Below, piece after piece: positions 1,502 to 14,356 of a DNA stretch of 22,667 bases; position 1 is the stretch's first letter; each line of letters begins with the position of its first letter. The translations under genes were made by a program, and so were the position numbers. The stretch spans positions 1 to 22,667 of the IMG/VR virus record IMGVR_UViG_3300042465_002050, one strand, 5' to 3'. The notes below the pieces were generated by a model. The model saw nothing but the letters and a program-made list of their open reading frames with translations, was not told where the DNA came from and did no database searches. The DNA comes from a virus.

Positions 1502-1978
1502 ATGGAAGCCGAAGCAGTGATACCTGAAATCAACATGACCGCCTTGGAGCGTAAATGGGCCGAGGAGGCAGCTAACAAGCAGCCCGCCCTCGAAGACGCC
1601 TATACCGAGCTCGGGTTTGACCCCGAGAAGCTCGACCAAGCGGTTGTCGACACCATCCCAAAACCTAGTGGTTGGCGCATTGCCATCCTCCCCTATCGCG
1701 GCGCGGAAAAGACCAAGGGCGGTATCGTCCTGGCCGAAGAAACGCAGCGCAAGACCCAGCTCGGTACTACCTGTGGCTATGTCTTGAAAGTAGGCGACCT
1801 TGCCTATGCCGACCAGAGTAAATTCCCGGCCGGACCATGGTGCAAGGAAGGTGACTGGATCATCTTCGGACGATATGCGGGTGCTCGCATCCCAATCGAC
1901 GGTGGTGAGATTCGTTTGTTGAACGACGACGAAGTTTTGGCTGTCGTAAACAGTCCTGAAGACATTCTGCACATGTAA
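1502..1978 (+). CDS. Phage co-chaperonin, GroES/Cpn10-like
   Basis: This 158-residue protein has a Cpn10 fold in residues about 53-150. KPSGWRIAILPYRGAEKTKGG leads into GGIVLAEETQRKTQ, which aligns with the GroES mobile loop; the hydrophobic IVL tripeptide (residues 75-77) that docks to GroEL is intact. Next come GYVLKVGDLAY and KEGDWIIFGRYAGARI, matching the VGD..IF.. core of GroES, and the end DDEVLAVVNSPEDIL matches the last GroES strand. Residues 1-50 are an extra helical extension absent from bacterial GroES. Known phage counterparts (T4 gp31, RB49 CocO) replace host GroES so that GroEL can fold the capsid protein. Placement directly before scaffold and capsid supports this role. Ribosome site: AAAGGAA before ATG 1502. 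Confidence 0.88.
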   Translation: MEAEAVIPEINMTALERKWAEEAANKQPALEDAYTELGFDPEKLDQAVVDTIPKPSGWRIAILPYRGAEKTKGGIVLAEETQRKTQLGTTCGYVLKVGDLAYADQSKFPAGPWCKEGDWIIFGRYAGARIPIDGGEIRLLNDDEVLAVVNSPEDILHM

Positions 1979-5100: not shown

Positions 5101-5559
5101 ATGGCTTCGACCACCTTTTCCGGCCCAGTTAAAGCGGGCACCATCAAAGAAACTACCGGCACGACTGTCGGCACTAACGTCAAGAACACTGGTTTTGTGC
5201 TGATGGCACAGTCTGCCGTGATCGACATCATCGGCGCTACTGCTGCTGACCAGGTTGTTGCCACCATCCCTGCTGGCTCACAGATCGTTGACGTGATTTT
5301 GAACGTCACCACTGCCAACGACGACACCGGTACTGCCACTGTTGCAGTTGGTACCTCTGGTACTGCTACTGCCTTCTTGCCCGCTACTTCCGTCAAGACG
5401 GCGGGTACCACTCGCGGCACTTTGACCACCAGCGTGGCAACTGATGTTGGCACTACCGACATTCAGGTTCTTGCTGACTTCACCGCTCAGAACGGCAACG
5501 GCGCAGCTGGTGCGGCAACTGTCACTGTGACATACCTGCAAGCTCGCGACTTGGTCTAA
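5101..5559 (+). CDS. Small beta-rich virion protein, unknown function
   Basis: The 152-residue product is extremely rich in Thr, Ala, Val and Gly with no Cys and few charges. The N-terminus MASTTFSGPVKAGTIKETTG is flexible, and the rest alternates short hydrophobic strands (AVIDIIGATAADQVVATIPAG, IVDVILNVTTANDD, AATVTVTYLQARDLV). This looks like a single jelly-roll or Ig-like beta sandwich, as in decoration or head-fibre proteins. It is the first gene after the capsid terminator and is preceded by a structured leader, with AAGGA 6 bases before the ATG. A capsid surface role is the best guess; a tail protein is also possible. Confidence 0.75.
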   Translation: MASTTFSGPVKAGTIKETTGTTVGTNVKNTGFVLMAQSAVIDIIGATAADQVVATIPAGSQIVDVILNVTTANDDTGTATVAVGTSGTATAFLPATSVKTAGTTRGTLTTSVATDVGTTDIQVLADFTAQNGNGAAGAATVTVTYLQARDLV

Positions 5560-5571
5560 TAGGAGGCCAAC

Positions 5572-5871
5572 ATGAGCGCCAGCAATATCAAGTCGGTACA
5601 GAAGACGTCGTCTGCGGCGGCTGTCTCTGGCCGCACGCGTCTGCTGGGGGTCTACTTCACAAACACCGCTACCGCCTCTTCTGTCGTCCTCAAGGATGGC
5701 GGCAGCAGCGGCACTGCCCGTTTGTCGCTGCTGACCCCTGCTTCAGCAGGTTCACAGGACTTGATGATCCCAGACATGGGCATCTTGTTCGAGGACGGCA
5801 TTTACATCACCTTTGGTTCGGCTGAAGTGACAAGCGTCACTTTACTGTACGAAGGCGGAGCACCTGCGTAA
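5572..5871 (+). CDS. Small beta-rich virion-type protein
   Basis: A 99-residue product behind an AGGAGG site (5562-5567). It contains a beta pattern TRLLGVYFTNTATASSVVLKDGG, then ARLSLLTPASAGSQDLMIPDMG, ILFEDGIYITFGSAEVTSVTLLYEGG. This strand-turn-strand layout with an IPDMGILFEDGIYI core recurs in small structural proteins of uncultured phages; the role is unknown. Its stop shares one base with the next start (TAATG), implying coupled translation. It has no Cys, membrane segment or signal peptide. A minor head or connector component is plausible from its position between capsid and adaptor genes. Confidence 0.72.
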   Translation: MSASNIKSVQKTSSAAAVSGRTRLLGVYFTNTATASSVVLKDGGSSGTARLSLLTPASAGSQDLMIPDMGILFEDGIYITFGSAEVTSVTLLYEGGAPA

Positions 5872-6155
5872 TGGCTTCTAAAGGCATGGGCATCAAAACC
5901 TCGGTGAAGAGCGGGAACTTCCGCGCCACCAAGGAAGGTGCCGGCATGACCAAAAAGGGCGTGGCAGCGTTTCGCAAGGCCAACCCTGGAAGCAAACTGA
6001 AGACGGCGGTGACTACCAAGACACCGTCGGCTGCAGAAGCAAAGCGTAGAGCATCGTATTGTGCGCGGTCCGAGGGCCAGATGAAGGATTTTCCTGAGGC
6101 TGCCAAGGACCCAAATAGCAGGCTTCGCCAGGCGCGAAAGCGCTGGAGGTGTTAG
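5871..6155 (+). CDS. Small basic protein, DUF6321-like
   Basis: The 94-residue, strongly basic protein contains GAGMTKKGVAAFRKANPGSK followed by KTAVTTKTPSAAEAKRRASYCARSEGQMK and ends DPNSRLRQARKRWRC. This is the pattern I know as DUF6321: a G-A-G-(M/L)-T-K-K-G helix, NPGSKLKTAV, a Lys/Arg-rich helix with ARS/M-G-M, and a terminal RKRW.C. Two Cys residues, one at the very end, are typical. Function is unknown; the charge suggests DNA or RNA binding or an internal head protein. It begins at the last base of the preceding stop codon, so translation is coupled. An internal KG-M-G-IKT start resembles the tiny Lys/Gly proteins nearby. Confidence 0.8.
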   Translation: MASKGMGIKTSVKSGNFRATKEGAGMTKKGVAAFRKANPGSKLKTAVTTKTPSAAEAKRRASYCARSEGQMKDFPEAAKDPNSRLRQARKRWRC

Positions 6156-6157
6156 TC

Positions 6158-6400
6158 GTGGAAATGATGGTATGGAACATAGTTCTCACAGCGATTGTGG
6201 GCCTCATGGGGTTTTTGCTCAAGAGCAAATTCGATGAGCTCGGCCGGATCAGCATTCTGTTGAACCGCACTCGCGAAGAGGTTGCCAGGGACCATATCAC
6301 CCGAAAGGAAGTGGATGACCGGGTTGAAAAACTTGTTCTTCACATGGATCAGAGGTTCAATCGAATTGAGCAAAAGCTCGATGACATGAGAAAAGGATGA
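6158..6400 (+). CDS. Small membrane-anchored coiled-coil protein
   Basis: I chose GTG 6158 (80 residues) because GGAGG at 6145-6149 is 8 bases away. GTG 6149 in the same frame would overlap that site, and ATG 6164 is further off. Residues about 4-22 (MVWNIVLTAIVGLMGFLLK) form one transmembrane helix. They are followed by a hydrophilic helix with LNRTREEVARDHITRKEV and a coiled coil, VEKLVLHMDQRFNRIEQKLDDM. Such one-span proteins with a coiled-coil tail are common among phage structural genes and are often called holin-like, but this one is far from the endolysin. A membrane role during ejection or lysis control is possible; function is not established. Confidence 0.72.
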   Translation: MEMMVWNIVLTAIVGLMGFLLKSKFDELGRISILLNRTREEVARDHITRKEVDDRVEKLVLHMDQRFNRIEQKLDDMRKG

Positions 6401-6404
6401 AGAC

Positions 6405-6587
6405 ATGAAAGCAGCAATGAAAATGGTCAAAAAAGGCGGCAAATCAGTGCCTTCTTTTGCGGCTGACGGCGTTGGCAAGATGAAAAAAGGTGGTATGGCC
6501 ATGAAGTCCGCATCGGACAAAATGGGTCGTGCCGTTTCTCGTAAAACGGCCGATGTCAAGGGCCGCGCAATGAAAAAAGGAGCTTAA
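6405..6587 (+). CDS. Tiny Lys/Gly-rich protein with KKGG motifs
   Basis: This 60-residue protein is dominated by Lys, Met, Gly, Ala and Ser. It carries MVKKGGKSVPSFAADG and KMKKGGMAMKSASDKMG, then a basic end GRAMKKGA. It starts 4 bases after the preceding stop and ends 2 bases before the next gene. Codon use matches its neighbours, which argues for a real gene. No known domain is recognised. The KKGG motif recurs in the next gene and elsewhere in this window, suggesting a short interaction or packaging signal. The protein is probably disordered in isolation and may bind nucleic acid. Confidence 0.7.
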   Translation: MKAAMKMVKKGGKSVPSFAADGVGKMKKGGMAMKSASDKMGRAVSRKTADVKGRAMKKGA

Positions 6588-6589
6588 TC

Positions 6590-6826
6590 ATGGCTGGAAA
6601 AGGTATGGGTTGCGCCACTCGTGGCGGCGGTGCTGTTGAAAGCGGCCCCAAAAACAAGATGTTGTCCGAGACCAGTAAAAGTACTGGTCCCGTGATGATG
6701 AAAAAAGGTGGTATGGCCAACAAAGGCGGCATCAATGAGCACAAGCGCATGGCCATGGGCAAGCCCATCGGCAAAATGGGCGGTGGCATGATGGCCAAGG
6801 GCTACAAAAAAGGCGGCATGTGCTAA
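6590..6826 (+). CDS. Tiny Lys/Gly/Met-rich protein with KKGG motifs
   Basis: A 78-residue product behind a GGAG site, related in style to the previous gene: MMKKGGMANKGG, MGKPIGKMGGGMMAKGYKKGGMC. It has Cys at position 8 and as the last residue, so disulphide or metal contact at the end is possible. The stop TAA is followed directly by the ATG of the adaptor gene. The shared MKKGGMA core makes duplication from the preceding gene likely. No function is known; low complexity means homology searches will be weak. It may be a minor virion component. Confidence 0.7.
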   Translation: MAGKGMGCATRGGGAVESGPKNKMLSETSKSTGPVMMKKGGMANKGGINEHKRMAMGKPIGKMGGGMMAKGYKKGGMC

Positions 6827-8500: not shown

Positions 8501-8784
8501 TCACAGCACCCGCCCCCGTACACGTAGGCAGCGTCTTTGTCGAGACCACGCAAAAGCGTGGCTGGACGCCAGAAGAGCTGGCCGCTCGCGCTGCCGACAA
8601 GATCATCTATGTGGGTGATCAGTCGCATCCGGCGGTGCAGGCCCAGGCAAGAGCTTTCAAGGATAGCGTCAAGCAAGTCGTGGCGTTTTATTTGAGAGAA
8701 GCGGTTGAACAGGACCGAGCAACTATTGCCTTGCGCCTGCGCGAGGCAGGTCACCCCGACTTGGTTCATTTGTTAGGAGATTAA
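8497..8784 (+). CDS. Small helical phage protein, unknown function
   Basis: A 95-residue protein translated from an ATGA overlap. The sequence VFVETTQKRGWTPEELAARA then DKIIYVGDQSHPAVQAQARA and VVAFYLREAVEQDRATIALR is mostly helical and charged. I recognise the TxKRGxTPEExAxRAxDKIIYVGDxxHP pattern as recurring next to adaptor genes in aquatic phages, with no assigned function. It may be a minor connector component or assembly factor. There is no Cys, signal peptide or membrane helix. The next gene starts 2 bases after its stop with its own AGGAGA site. Confidence 0.75.
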   Translation: MITAPAPVHVGSVFVETTQKRGWTPEELAARAADKIIYVGDQSHPAVQAQARAFKDSVKQVVAFYLREAVEQDRATIALRLREAGHPDLVHLLGD

Positions 8785-9951: not shown

Positions 9952-12900
9952 ATGGCAGGAAGCACCTACTCCAGTAACCTCAAGATTGAGTTGATGACCA
10001 CGGGTGAAAACTCGGGCACTTGGGGCGACATCACGAACACCAACTTGGGCACGGCGCTTGAGCAGGCGGTGATTGGTTATGGCAACCCTGACTATGTCTC
10101 TGATGCCAACCTGACCATCAGTATCACCAACAGCAACGCGGCCCAAGCTGCGCGTGCCCTGGTTCTGAATGTAACGTCCACTTTTGGTGGCTTGACAGCC
10201 ACCCGCGAGCTGGTGGTTCCTACCATCCAGAAGCAGTACATCGTTCAGAACAACACGACCGGTGGCCAAAGCATCACGGTCAAGACCTCTGCTGGCACTG
10301 GCATCACTGTCCCGAACGGCCGCAAGGCTCACTTGTATGTGAACGGCACTGACGTCATCCAGATGTTTGACTTTGTCGACATCAACGGCGGCACGATCGA
10401 CGGTACGGCCATTGGCGGTTCTTCTGCAGCGGCCGGCGCATTCACCACGCTCAACGCCTCTGGTGCAACGACACTGGACGGCGCTGTTGCCCTGGGCAAT
10501 GCCTCTGGCGACTTGATCACCTTCCCTGGCACGATCAACAGCAGCCTGCTGTTCACCGACAATAGCTTTGACATCGGCGCATCTGGTGCCACGCGCCCAC
10601 GCAACTTGTTCCTGGCTGGCGCTGCCACCATCGGCGGCAACTTGTCTGTTGGCGGCACGCTGACACTGACTGGTGGTGTGAACTTGAACGGCAATGTGAC
10701 CGTGGGCGACAGCGCTGCAGATACGCTGACGATCAACGCCACGATCACCAGCAACCTCATCTTCACCGACAACACCTACGACATCGGTGCGTCTGGTGCG
10801 ACACGTCCACGCAACTTGTTCCTGGCCGGCAACGCGACCATTGGTGGCGCTCAGACGCTGACCGGCGCATTGACCGTGGACAGCACGACTGATTCCACCA
10901 GCACGACCACTGGCTCGATCCAAACGGACGGTGGTGTGGGCATTGCTAAGGCTTTGTTTGTTGGAAGCTCAGTAAACGGAAGGGACACAAATACTTGGAC
11001 TTTGCAAAGCGTTGCTGCAAGTGGTTCTCTTGTTGCAGGTGGTTGGCTTTATGGAGTTAACGAGGGATTAAATCTATCCCCTAATGGCGCGGGATTGCTT
11101 AAACGGCTGACAATTTCCTATTTCACAGGTGCGGCGTACTCGGAGGCGCTTGGGATAGCCAACGTAAATACTGGCCCCGGAACTGGAACCCTGTCTTTAA
11201 TGGGTGGAGTGGCCTCAGTCAACTCTTCTGGCGTTGCAGTCACTGGAACAACCACTTCTTCAGGCAACATCACAATAGGCAATGCCGCCGCCGCAACAAA
11301 CGTAGCGCTAAATTTGAATGGCGTCGTCAATAAAGCACAGCGAATCGTATTTCAAAACTCTGGAGTTGAGCAGTGGCTCATTGGCGCTGGTGCGGCATCT
11401 GAAACTTCTGCGTTTGAGATTTACAACTCAAACGGAACGATGGAGTTGTCCATCAACAAATCAACTTCGGTTGCAACTTTTGCTGGTGGCACTATATCGG
11501 TTACCGGCACTGGGTCGCGTGGCGTCAGGTTGCGAGGTCTTGGCGCTGGTGAAGTTGCTATTGCTGGTGACGGTTCAACCTATGCTATTGGCTACAACTT
11601 TTACAACACAACCTCCTACACTTCATCGTTAGGCGGTATGTTTGCATATACCGCCGGTGGATCAATTCAATATATATCTATTGGGGCGGCATACAACAAT
11701 GCTGGTATTTATGTAGCCGCAAGCAATAAGGTAGGTATTGCAACAGACCAGCCTTCTAACAATCTGCAAGTTAATGCGGCGGCTGGTTTGCCTTCTTCTT
11801 CCGATGTGGCAGAAGCCGCAATTCTTGTTAAAGACTCAGGAAGTAATAGACGAATTGGTATTGGAACTTATTCGTCAGGTACTTGGATTCAAGCCGCTTA
11901 TCCCGGAGTTGCTGGGCCGGCGTATCCTATTTCTATAAACCCAAATGGTGGCTATGTTGGAATTGGGGAATCATCTCCTTCAAGTTCTTTGCATGTTTCT
12001 TTTACCAGCAATTCAGTAGACAACATTCTACAAATCCAGCAAAAAGGCAACAACACGGCGTCTGGCATCGTATTGGCGGCCAATGATAATAATGGTGCAG
12101 GGTACAATTTCATTCGCTCTACAACCACAGGTGGAACAACCCACTGGCAGATTAGCGGGGGCGTAACAACTTCGACGATGGCGTTATCGACAGGCGGCTC
12201 CGAATGCGCTCGTTACGATTCAGGCGGCAACTACTATGTGGGGGCAACATCAGGTCTTGGCGCGGCCACTGTTAACGGCCTATACGTCAGCACTGGAAGT
12301 TACGTTGCAGGTGGTCAAGTAACTCAACTGCTTGGCTATTGGATGTCAAGAGCCAACGACAACAACGGTCAAGGAGGTGTTGGCATTCAATACTACCGAG
12401 TGCCTCGTGGCGGCGGTGTGCAGACTGGTACTGAGATTCGTTTTTACACAGGCTTCTCGTATACGCCGTCTACCACTGGGCACGTTGGTACTTTTGACCA
12501 AAACGGTAATTTTTTGGTTGGATTTAGCCAGTCATTAACCAACACATACGTTGGTGTAAACCATGTCACTGGTTCTACAAATGGCGCTTCGTTCTTTGTG
12601 TCGGCCTACAACGGCGCACAGATTGGTGATATTGCTCAAAGCGGCACAACGGCTGTTGTGTACAACACCACCTCCGACTACCGTCTGAAAAACAACCCAC
12701 AGCCTTTAACAGGTTCTGGTGCGTTTATTGACGCCCTCCAGCCAAAAACTTGGACTTGGACGACAGACGGCTCAAAGGGCGCTGGCTTTATTGCGCATGA
12801 GTTTGCTGAAGTATCCCCAGCATCTGTTACTGGCGCAAAGGATGCTGTTGATGAAAACGGTAACCCAAAATACCAAGGCATGCAAGCGTCTACTCCAGAG

Positions 12901-12969
12901 GTCATTGCCAACTTGGTCGCTGAAATTCAATCACTCCGCCAGCGTCTTGCGGCGGCAAATATTGCTTAA
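9952..12969 (+). CDS. Tail fibre with C-terminal self-cleaving S74 chaperone domain
   Basis: The 1005 residues divide into three parts. Residues 1-145 are a conserved virion-attachment domain (STYSSNLKIELMTTGENSGT, later TVPNGRKAHLYVNGTDV). The shaft, about 146-900, contains a 35-residue unit repeated at 194 and 264 (FDIGASGATRPRNLFLAG) and later fibre motifs such as VGIGESSPSSSLHV. The C-terminal domain, about 905-1005, is the Peptidase S74 intramolecular chaperone, with TSDYRLKNN (Ser908, Lys913), GFIAHEFAEVSP and a terminal coiled coil (IANLVAEIQSLRQRL). In this family the domain trimerises the fibre and then cuts itself off just before the serine, leaving about 907 residues. From about 10950 base composition becomes AT-richer than the N-terminal part, suggesting an exchanged receptor-binding module. 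Ribosome site AAAGGAAA. Confidence 0.9.
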   Translation: MAGSTYSSNLKIELMTTGENSGTWGDITNTNLGTALEQAVIGYGNPDYVSDANLTISITNSNAAQAARALVLNVTSTFGGLTATRELVVPTIQKQYIVQNNTTGGQSITVKTSAGTGITVPNGRKAHLYVNGTDVIQMFDFVDINGGTIDGTAIGGSSAAAGAFTTLNASGATTLDGAVALGNASGDLITFPGTINSSLLFTDNSFDIGASGATRPRNLFLAGAATIGGNLSVGGTLTLTGGVNLNGNVTVGDSAADTLTINATITSNLIFTDNTYDIGASGATRPRNLFLAGNATIGGAQTLTGALTVDSTTDSTSTTTGSIQTDGGVGIAKALFVGSSVNGRDTNTWTLQSVAASGSLVAGGWLYGVNEGLNLSPNGAGLLKRLTISYFTGAAYSEALGIANVNTGPGTGTLSLMGGVASVNSSGVAVTGTTTSSGNITIGNAAAATNVALNLNGVVNKAQRIVFQNSGVEQWLIGAGAASETSAFEIYNSNGTMELSINKSTSVATFAGGTISVTGTGSRGVRLRGLGAGEVAIAGDGSTYAIGYNFYNTTSYTSSLGGMFAYTAGGSIQYISIGAAYNNAGIYVAASNKVGIATDQPSNNLQVNAAAGLPSSSDVAEAAILVKDSGSNRRIGIGTYSSGTWIQAAYPGVAGPAYPISINPNGGYVGIGESSPSSSLHVSFTSNSVDNILQIQQKGNNTASGIVLAANDNNGAGYNFIRSTTTGGTTHWQISGGVTTSTMALSTGGSECARYDSGGNYYVGATSGLGAATVNGLYVSTGSYVAGGQVTQLLGYWMSRANDNNGQGGVGIQYYRVPRGGGVQTGTEIRFYTGFSYTPSTTGHVGTFDQNGNFLVGFSQSLTNTYVGVNHVTGSTNGASFFVSAYNGAQIGDIAQSGTTAVVYNTTSDYRLKNNPQPLTGSGAFIDALQPKTWTWTTDGSKGAGFIAHEFAEVSPASVTGAKDAVDENGNPKYQGMQASTPEVIANLVAEIQSLRQRLAAANIA
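10531..10845 (+). repeat. Two in-frame copies of a 105-base fibre segment
   Basis: Segments 10531-10635 and 10741-10845 encode the same 35-residue unit (TIxSxLxFTDNxxDIGASGA continuing into RPRNLFLAGxATIGG), offset by exactly 210 bases or 70 residues. The intervening 35 residues are also Thr/Gly-rich and beta-like. This looks like a shaft-extending duplication. Confidence 0.8.
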
Positions 12970-13741: not shown

Positions 13742-14356
13742 ATGAGCGACGATAAAGCCATTGGCGTGCTTGACAGGGTGCTGTCTTACGTAGACTCGCC
13801 TTTCAAACTGATTGCCATCATCGTCATGGCTGTTGTCGCTTTTGTAGGGTACCTGTTTTGGCAGAATCAGGCCTTCCTGATCTCTGCCTACCAAGAACAA
13901 AAAAGGATGCCCGCGATCCACGAAGAACGAGTGGATGACGCAGCATCAGTGCTTTTCAAGCACACTGAAGCCAAGTTCGTAGCTGTCTTCAAGGTAAACC
14001 CAATCCTGGGCACCCGCGTGCTGCACCGCCTGTACACCAAGGATGGCCGCACCAAAGAGATGGAGGGCCTGGATGTTGGCCTCTTCACAAGCAACCACGC
14101 CAACAACAGCGACGTGGTAAAACTCATGGCCGGCGAAATCACTTGTGGGAACTACTTACGTCCCCAAAGTGAGCTCGGCATTTGGTACATCGCACAAGGT
14201 GCAAGCTACACGTGCCGCGTGGCAGTACCACCAGACCGCAGCCGATTTATTGGCCAGATTACCGCAGGGTGGGGATCACCGCCAGATAACTTGGAGCATA
14301 TTGTCTCTATGATGGAAATTGCAGCGACCATGTTGGTCAAAAGAGGTGGAGCATGA
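13742..14356 (+). CDS. T4 gpT-like holin (class III)
   Basis: The 204-residue protein has a short N-terminal cytoplasmic segment (IGVLDRVLSYVDSPFK), one transmembrane helix (about 23-41, LIAIIVMAVVAFVGYLFW) and a 160-residue soluble C-terminal domain. This matches the topology of T4 holin T (218 residues, single helix near residue 35-55, periplasmic domain). Residue patterns also agree from memory: GVLDR before the helix, FVAVFKVNP against FSAVYSFRP, and SYTCRVAVPPDRSRFIGQIT against a Cys and aromatic stretch in T. C135 and C158 could form a disulphide. T holins set the time of lysis, and their periplasmic domain is the target of the antiholin RI. It is directly followed, with ATGA overlaps, by a membrane protein and the endolysin. 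Confidence 0.72.
   Translation: MSDDKAIGVLDRVLSYVDSPFKLIAIIVMAVVAFVGYLFWQNQAFLISAYQEQKRMPAIHEERVDDAASVLFKHTEAKFVAVFKVNPILGTRVLHRLYTKDGRTKEMEGLDVGLFTSNHANNSDVVKLMAGEITCGNYLRPQSELGIWYIAQGASYTCRVAVPPDRSRFIGQITAGWGSPPDNLEHIVSMMEIAATMLVKRGGA

Follow-up and report, generated by a model that had tools for sequence, protein, structure and literature searches.

The T holin of phage T4 (gpT; PF11031, PHROG 860) has an amphipathic helix, a transmembrane (TM) segment and a bridge helix as its essential parts, and an aromatic F22 and a basic R34, which lie on the same membrane face, are essential as well (PMC12162936). Residues R104, Y110 and F111 of T are reported to matter for its contact with RI (PMC11413866). 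A different holin, TeaA (Gp137) of ICP1, acts as a holin in experimental tests (PMC7182436), and lysis cassettes that carry two or more holin-like genes have been described, for example in P1 (PMC9025707) and in mycobacteriophages (PMC13056207). The gene considered here, which we call the T-like gene, is found in the IMG/VR virus record IMGVR_UViG_3300042465_002050. The whole stretch analysed, positions 1 to 22,667, is referred to as the window; it is probably a fragment, and its portal, major head and tail fibre genes fit a tailed phage. Coordinates are collected in Table 1.

Table 1. Features of the window and of related records, with coordinates
Feature	Coordinates	Strand	Remarks
Cpn10/GroES-like protein	1502-1978		PF00166, E = 4e-10; among head genes
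Rz-like PHROG match	5101-5559		E = 1e-5
Series of small Lys/Gly/Met-rich ORFs	5871-6826		repeated KKGG motifs
Tail fibre protein	9952-12969		Peptidase_S74 chaperone domain at end
Zinc-ribbon-like protein, 70 aa	13520..13732	+	just 5' of T-like gene; weak zinc-ribbon matches
T-like class III holin candidate, 204 aa	13742..14356	+	TM 21-39, bridge helix, predicted periplasmic GAF-like domain
Second holin candidate, 175 aa	14353..14880	+	TM ~102-120; PHROG 1544, E = 2.1e-11
Endolysin, M15 peptidase type, 121 aa	14877..15242	+	phrog_465 endolysin, E = 6.8e-14
Secreted protein of the ctah5458 clade	L144:5645-5917; MW202825 7821-8087; also L149, L150, L151, L155, L159, L164		
Secreted protein in MW202825.1	L084:8579-8851		GenBank start 8618
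TeaA-like gene in MW202545.1, then M15-type endolysin	L210:3001-3872		unannotated

The T-like ORF begins with ATG, has AAGGG about 9 nt upstream by inspection of the sequence, and is confirmed as a real gene because it is conserved in relatives. A first scan of IMG/VR viral contigs returned 171 relatives and a second at least 580, many of the contigs encoding proteins with 60% to 100% identity, and a scan of genome contigs found a single MAG contig. The profile of PHROG 31287, a family that carries no annotated function, matches residues 9 to 188 of the protein, nearly its full length, at E = 5e-21, which places it in that family by sequence; other members are Edwardsiella phage GF-2 gp77, Edno5 gp70 and Cronobacter phage S13 gp076. 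Residues P20, L23, R92, C135, C158, P163, P164 and G171 are invariant in the family. Among 36 aligned relatives, C135 and C158 never change, residue 16 is Y or W without exception, so that an aromatic residue is invariant there, and residue 22 is K or R throughout. There is a single TM segment (KD19 peak 2.53), and the charges that flank it in the window protein do not, by themselves, fix the topology.

PF11031 scores the T-like protein at 11.1 bits, and because this falls under the cut-off of 22.2 it does not count as a formal member by that model, which also gave zero matches in eight other members of PHROG 31287. The PHROG 860 (T holin) profile matches it at E = 1.5e-4. Family alignments (A1 and A3) were also compared with an alignment of T (A2, containing T4, T5 and nine others), and alignments containing the window protein gave a profile-profile probability of 83-93%; five named-phage relatives taken without the window protein gave 25%. 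The hhalign score of the T-like profile to T is 44.0, whereas the highest of 200 column-shuffled controls reached 24.7 and the reversed profile 13.2. The N-terminal and TM part carries the similarity, reaching a probability of 82% by itself, and the isolated C-terminal domain scores 19.0 with a shuffle maximum of 18.1 and a probability of 1.7%. These profiles point to significant homology to T, residing mainly in the N-terminal and TM part. Neither the protein itself nor the family profile had any hit in sequence searches of the Protein Data Bank (PDB), the link there coming from the fold search only, and no paper found in our literature searches names the PHROG 31287 family as T-like.

The AlphaFold2 model, built on a 31-sequence alignment, has a mean pLDDT of 82.5 and consists of a helix at residues 9-16, a long helix at 20-54, and then a mixed alpha/beta domain with a fold that, as modeled, is GAF-like. 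T4 holin T ranks first in the fold search of 350,542 PDB chains (6psk_T, E = 3.1e-6), the T chains of 6px4 and 6pxe are among the top matches with E from 3e-6 to 4e-5, and the TM-score on the target reaches 0.73 (6px4). GAF domains of phytochromes and kinases come close behind T. Because the GAF matches are nearly equal and the C-terminal domain scores barely above its shuffled controls, its link to T is best described as one of fold; T is favored over other GAF proteins because it is the top PDB match and because of the N-terminal similarity. Among the viral models matched by fold are several named holins, from Proteus phages phiP4-3 and Stubb and from Serratia phage PS2. The first-pass annotation had proposed a profile search and an AlphaFold comparison as checks on its T4-type holin, and both do link the protein to the T family, with PF11031 alone under its cut-off. 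In BFVD, there are also fold matches to A0A6J5KRQ8, A0A8S5VUB8, A0A6J5LAF5 and K4F9M1, some of them named as GAF domain-containing, and these phage proteins may be further unrecognized T-type holins.

The predicted anatomy is that of T4 T, with an N-terminal amphipathic helix, a single TM segment and a bridge helix, and in length and in its GAF-like C-terminal domain the protein resembles T4 T and the T5 type. Residue patterns common with gpT had been proposed at the outset, and they are clearest in GVLDR(L/V), on the N-terminal side of the TM helix. D11 aligns with T4 D19, a site whose changes inactivate T, and is kept in 27 of the 36 relatives. Residues 16 and 22 fall in different alignment columns from T4 F22 and R34, making that parallel only a functional one. 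The two cysteines that were thought to agree with gpT do so by half: C158 (in YTC) aligns with T4 C175 (in YSC), but T4 C207 has no counterpart in the T-like protein and C135 none in T, and the invariant pair C175/C207 of T is thus only half matched.

The profile alignments also bear on lysis inhibition, since R104, Y110 and F111 of T fall opposite N86, R92 and V93, and the contact residues are not kept. The RI models PF24205 and phrog_1246 found no match in 26 records including the window, many of them fragments; T4, the positive control, was the sole match among 27 records, and with the window being a 22.7-kb fragment an absence is not proof. Crude screening for signal peptides in the window and in five long relatives turned up no conserved candidate for an RI-like partner. 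T4-style RI binding is judged unlikely from these comparisons because RI was not found in the 26, the contact residues differ, and one cysteine is matched, so the RI binding and lysis inhibition suggested by the first-pass annotation go unsupported. What stands of its T4-type holin is the anatomy, the fold and the position, and not membership in PF11031.

Around the T-like gene in the window, the zinc-ribbon-like gene just upstream is probably co-transcribed with it, the second holin candidate shares an ATGA overlap with it, and the endolysin gene has an ATGA overlap with the gene that precedes it. PF13539 scores that endolysin at 24.4 bits with a cut-off of 25, and neither a signal peptide nor a TM segment was seen in it. 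Judged by sequence, the T-like gene belongs to a cluster of lysis genes whose endolysin is non-secreted. No spanin was recognized in the window; the Rz-like match sits amid structural genes, and we discount it.

The second holin candidate has a described relative. ICP1 ORF137, which by our reading of the numbering is Gp137, matches phrog_1544 at E = 1.7e-53, and there is a shared tail (FGTTRGSKEKD / FGSTKGSKDKD). These matches place the window product in the TeaA family (PHROG 1544) as a holin candidate, and the window cassette therefore has two such candidates. TeaA is unrelated to the T-like protein itself, and each occurs without the other, the T-like gene in Edwardsiella phages and a TeaA-like gene in MW202545. 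The latter gene, 61% identical to that of the window, is followed by an M15-type endolysin, and a T-like match was not found in that record. PHROGs gives family 1544 no function, although ICP1 TeaA was tested.

The wider context was drawn from the loci, 127 in all, that extend 2.2 kb or more past the T-like gene, and whose downstream genes were typed by similarity to reference proteins; many of these loci are near-copies, and they do not represent 127 independent events. An endolysin is encoded within the 2.2 kb in 124 of the 127 and some lysis gene in 126, and the endolysins belong to three unrelated classes, GH108, lysozyme and M15. The T-like gene is followed by phrog_6637 and lysozyme in 40 loci, by GH108 and a PF11351 holin in 36, by PF11351 and M15 in 16, by lysozyme and Rz in 8, and by phrog_1544 and M15 in 8. 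Another 13 have a secreted candidate and a holin-type gene before GH108, M15 or lysozyme. The rest have lysozyme only (2), M15 only (1), PF11351 only (1), phrog_1544 only (1), or no lysis gene (1, Cronobacter S13). A constant first gene before exchangeable endolysins is the pattern expected of a holin, and this context supports a lysis role for the T-like gene. Unlike T4 T, it frequently has another holin-like gene beside it, and in many relatives that slot is filled by GTA_holin_3TM (PF11351), which is unrelated to the T-like protein in sequence and topology. T5 also has its T holin gene directly 5' of the endolysin gene. Edwardsiella phages GF-2 and Edno5 have the order Q, T-like, lysozyme, Rz, which is the lambda layout, and within their cassette a segment of TM strength is found only in the T-like protein and Rz. 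There the PHROG 31287 member stands alone before lysozyme and Rz, whereas in the window a TeaA-family gene is part of the same cassette.

A secreted neighbor is found in the ctah5458 clade, where the T-like proteins are about 30% identical and an ORF of 89-91 aa overlaps the stop codon of the T-like gene, beginning within it, with GTG as the start where checked. By inspection, its product has a signal peptide (ARSA/E or AGSA/E), it has two invariant cysteines, and the mature protein gives a confident four-helix model (pLDDT 92.6). Scanned for separately, it turned up in 20 contigs; the T-like gene is present in 19 of these, and the 20th is cut at that point. Neither Pfam nor PHROGs gave it a significant family match, and the window clade lacks it. 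Its resemblance to T4 RI is in size, export, cysteines and neighborhood only; a relationship to RI was considered and set aside, there being no sequence link and no PDB fold match below E = 1. It is an antiholin candidate only. In MW202825.1, the GenBank start loses the signal peptide; a start at the GTG at 8579, which overlaps the stop of the T-like gene, is more likely.

On anatomy, fold and position, we read the T-like gene as a divergent T-type class III holin with a probability of roughly 75%. The analysis establishes the gene, its family and cassette position, the single TM segment, the predicted fold and the distant sequence link to T, while membrane orientation, disulfide, hole formation, timing and regulation are inferred. 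By analogy with T4, the protein would insert N-in/C-out, accumulate and oligomerize in the inner membrane, and at a set time the amphipathic N-terminal helix would swing into the membrane and open a hole through which the M15 endolysin, encoded two genes downstream, would leave the cytoplasm. The GAF-like domain would lie in the periplasm and serve regulation and not the hole, and the cysteine pair, wired unlike that of T4, may stabilize this domain through a putative disulfide. The TeaA-family holin and the T-like holin probably act jointly or redundantly.

The TeaA-family neighbor could also be the real holin, and the T-like protein, not itself the hole former, would then act in the membrane as an antiholin or co-holin that regulates the adjacent TeaA-like or 3TM holin. 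Nearly all cassettes of the freshwater-type clades do encode a second TM protein (PF11351/phrog_3427, phrog_6637 or phrog_1544), MW202545 retains the TeaA-like gene and M15 endolysin with the T-like match absent, and for the tested holin TeaA, too, the search for the antiholin, ArrA, was made among the TM proteins encoded at its locus (PMC7182436). We consider the regulator role unlikely, in view of GF-2, Edno5 and Vibrio IKEMa6-1, whose cassettes have a single holin candidate, the T-like gene, directly before a signal-less lysozyme and an Rz-type spanin. ICP1 ORF138, which we assume to be ArrA, also shows no relation to the T-like profile (hhalign probability 0.3).

The resemblance in anatomy and fold, together with the linkage of the secreted two-cysteine protein to the T-like gene in the ctah5458 clade, might instead be taken to mean a true T4 T equivalent complete with RI-mediated lysis inhibition. 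The differing RI-contact residues, the failure to find RI in the 26 records, the lack of a conserved candidate in the signal-peptide scan, and the absence from the window clade of the secreted protein, itself with no sequence or fold link to RI, make that equivalence very improbable. GAF domains dominate the PDB matches after T, and several viral fold matches are named GAF domain-containing proteins, from which one could imagine a membrane-anchored GAF-domain sensor unrelated to lysis and near an endolysin by chance. We give this hardly any credence, given the endolysins of three unrelated classes in nearly every locus, the occupation of position S in a Q-S-R-Rz order, and the similarity of the N-terminus to the hole-forming part of T.

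Returning to the T-type holin reading, it can be extended, tentatively and with more doubt than belief, to PHROG 31287 as a widespread second branch of T-type holins, the GAF-like domain being regulated by something other than T4 RI. In the ctah5458 clade the holin would be paired with its own secreted antiholin, and lysis timing or inhibition would be RI-independent, often with a second holin. A T-type reading gives a probable function to an unannotated family, one that recurs often among the viral contigs searched and has members in Edwardsiella, Vibrio, Cronobacter and Citrobacter phages, and it extends the T-type holin fold past the T4- and T5-like holins recognized by the T profile. It opens the question of whether regulation via a periplasmic GAF-like domain is general, and cassettes with two unlike holin candidates are suited to asking which one sets the lysis time.

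The T4-like phages Cronobacter S13 (L087) and Citrobacter Ci1 (L089) encode a member of PHROG 31287, and searching these two for PF11031 and RI gave no match. The protein may replace t there. In S13 the T-like gene lies apart from the endolysin gene, like t in T4, and both phages look as if t and rI had been replaced or lost.
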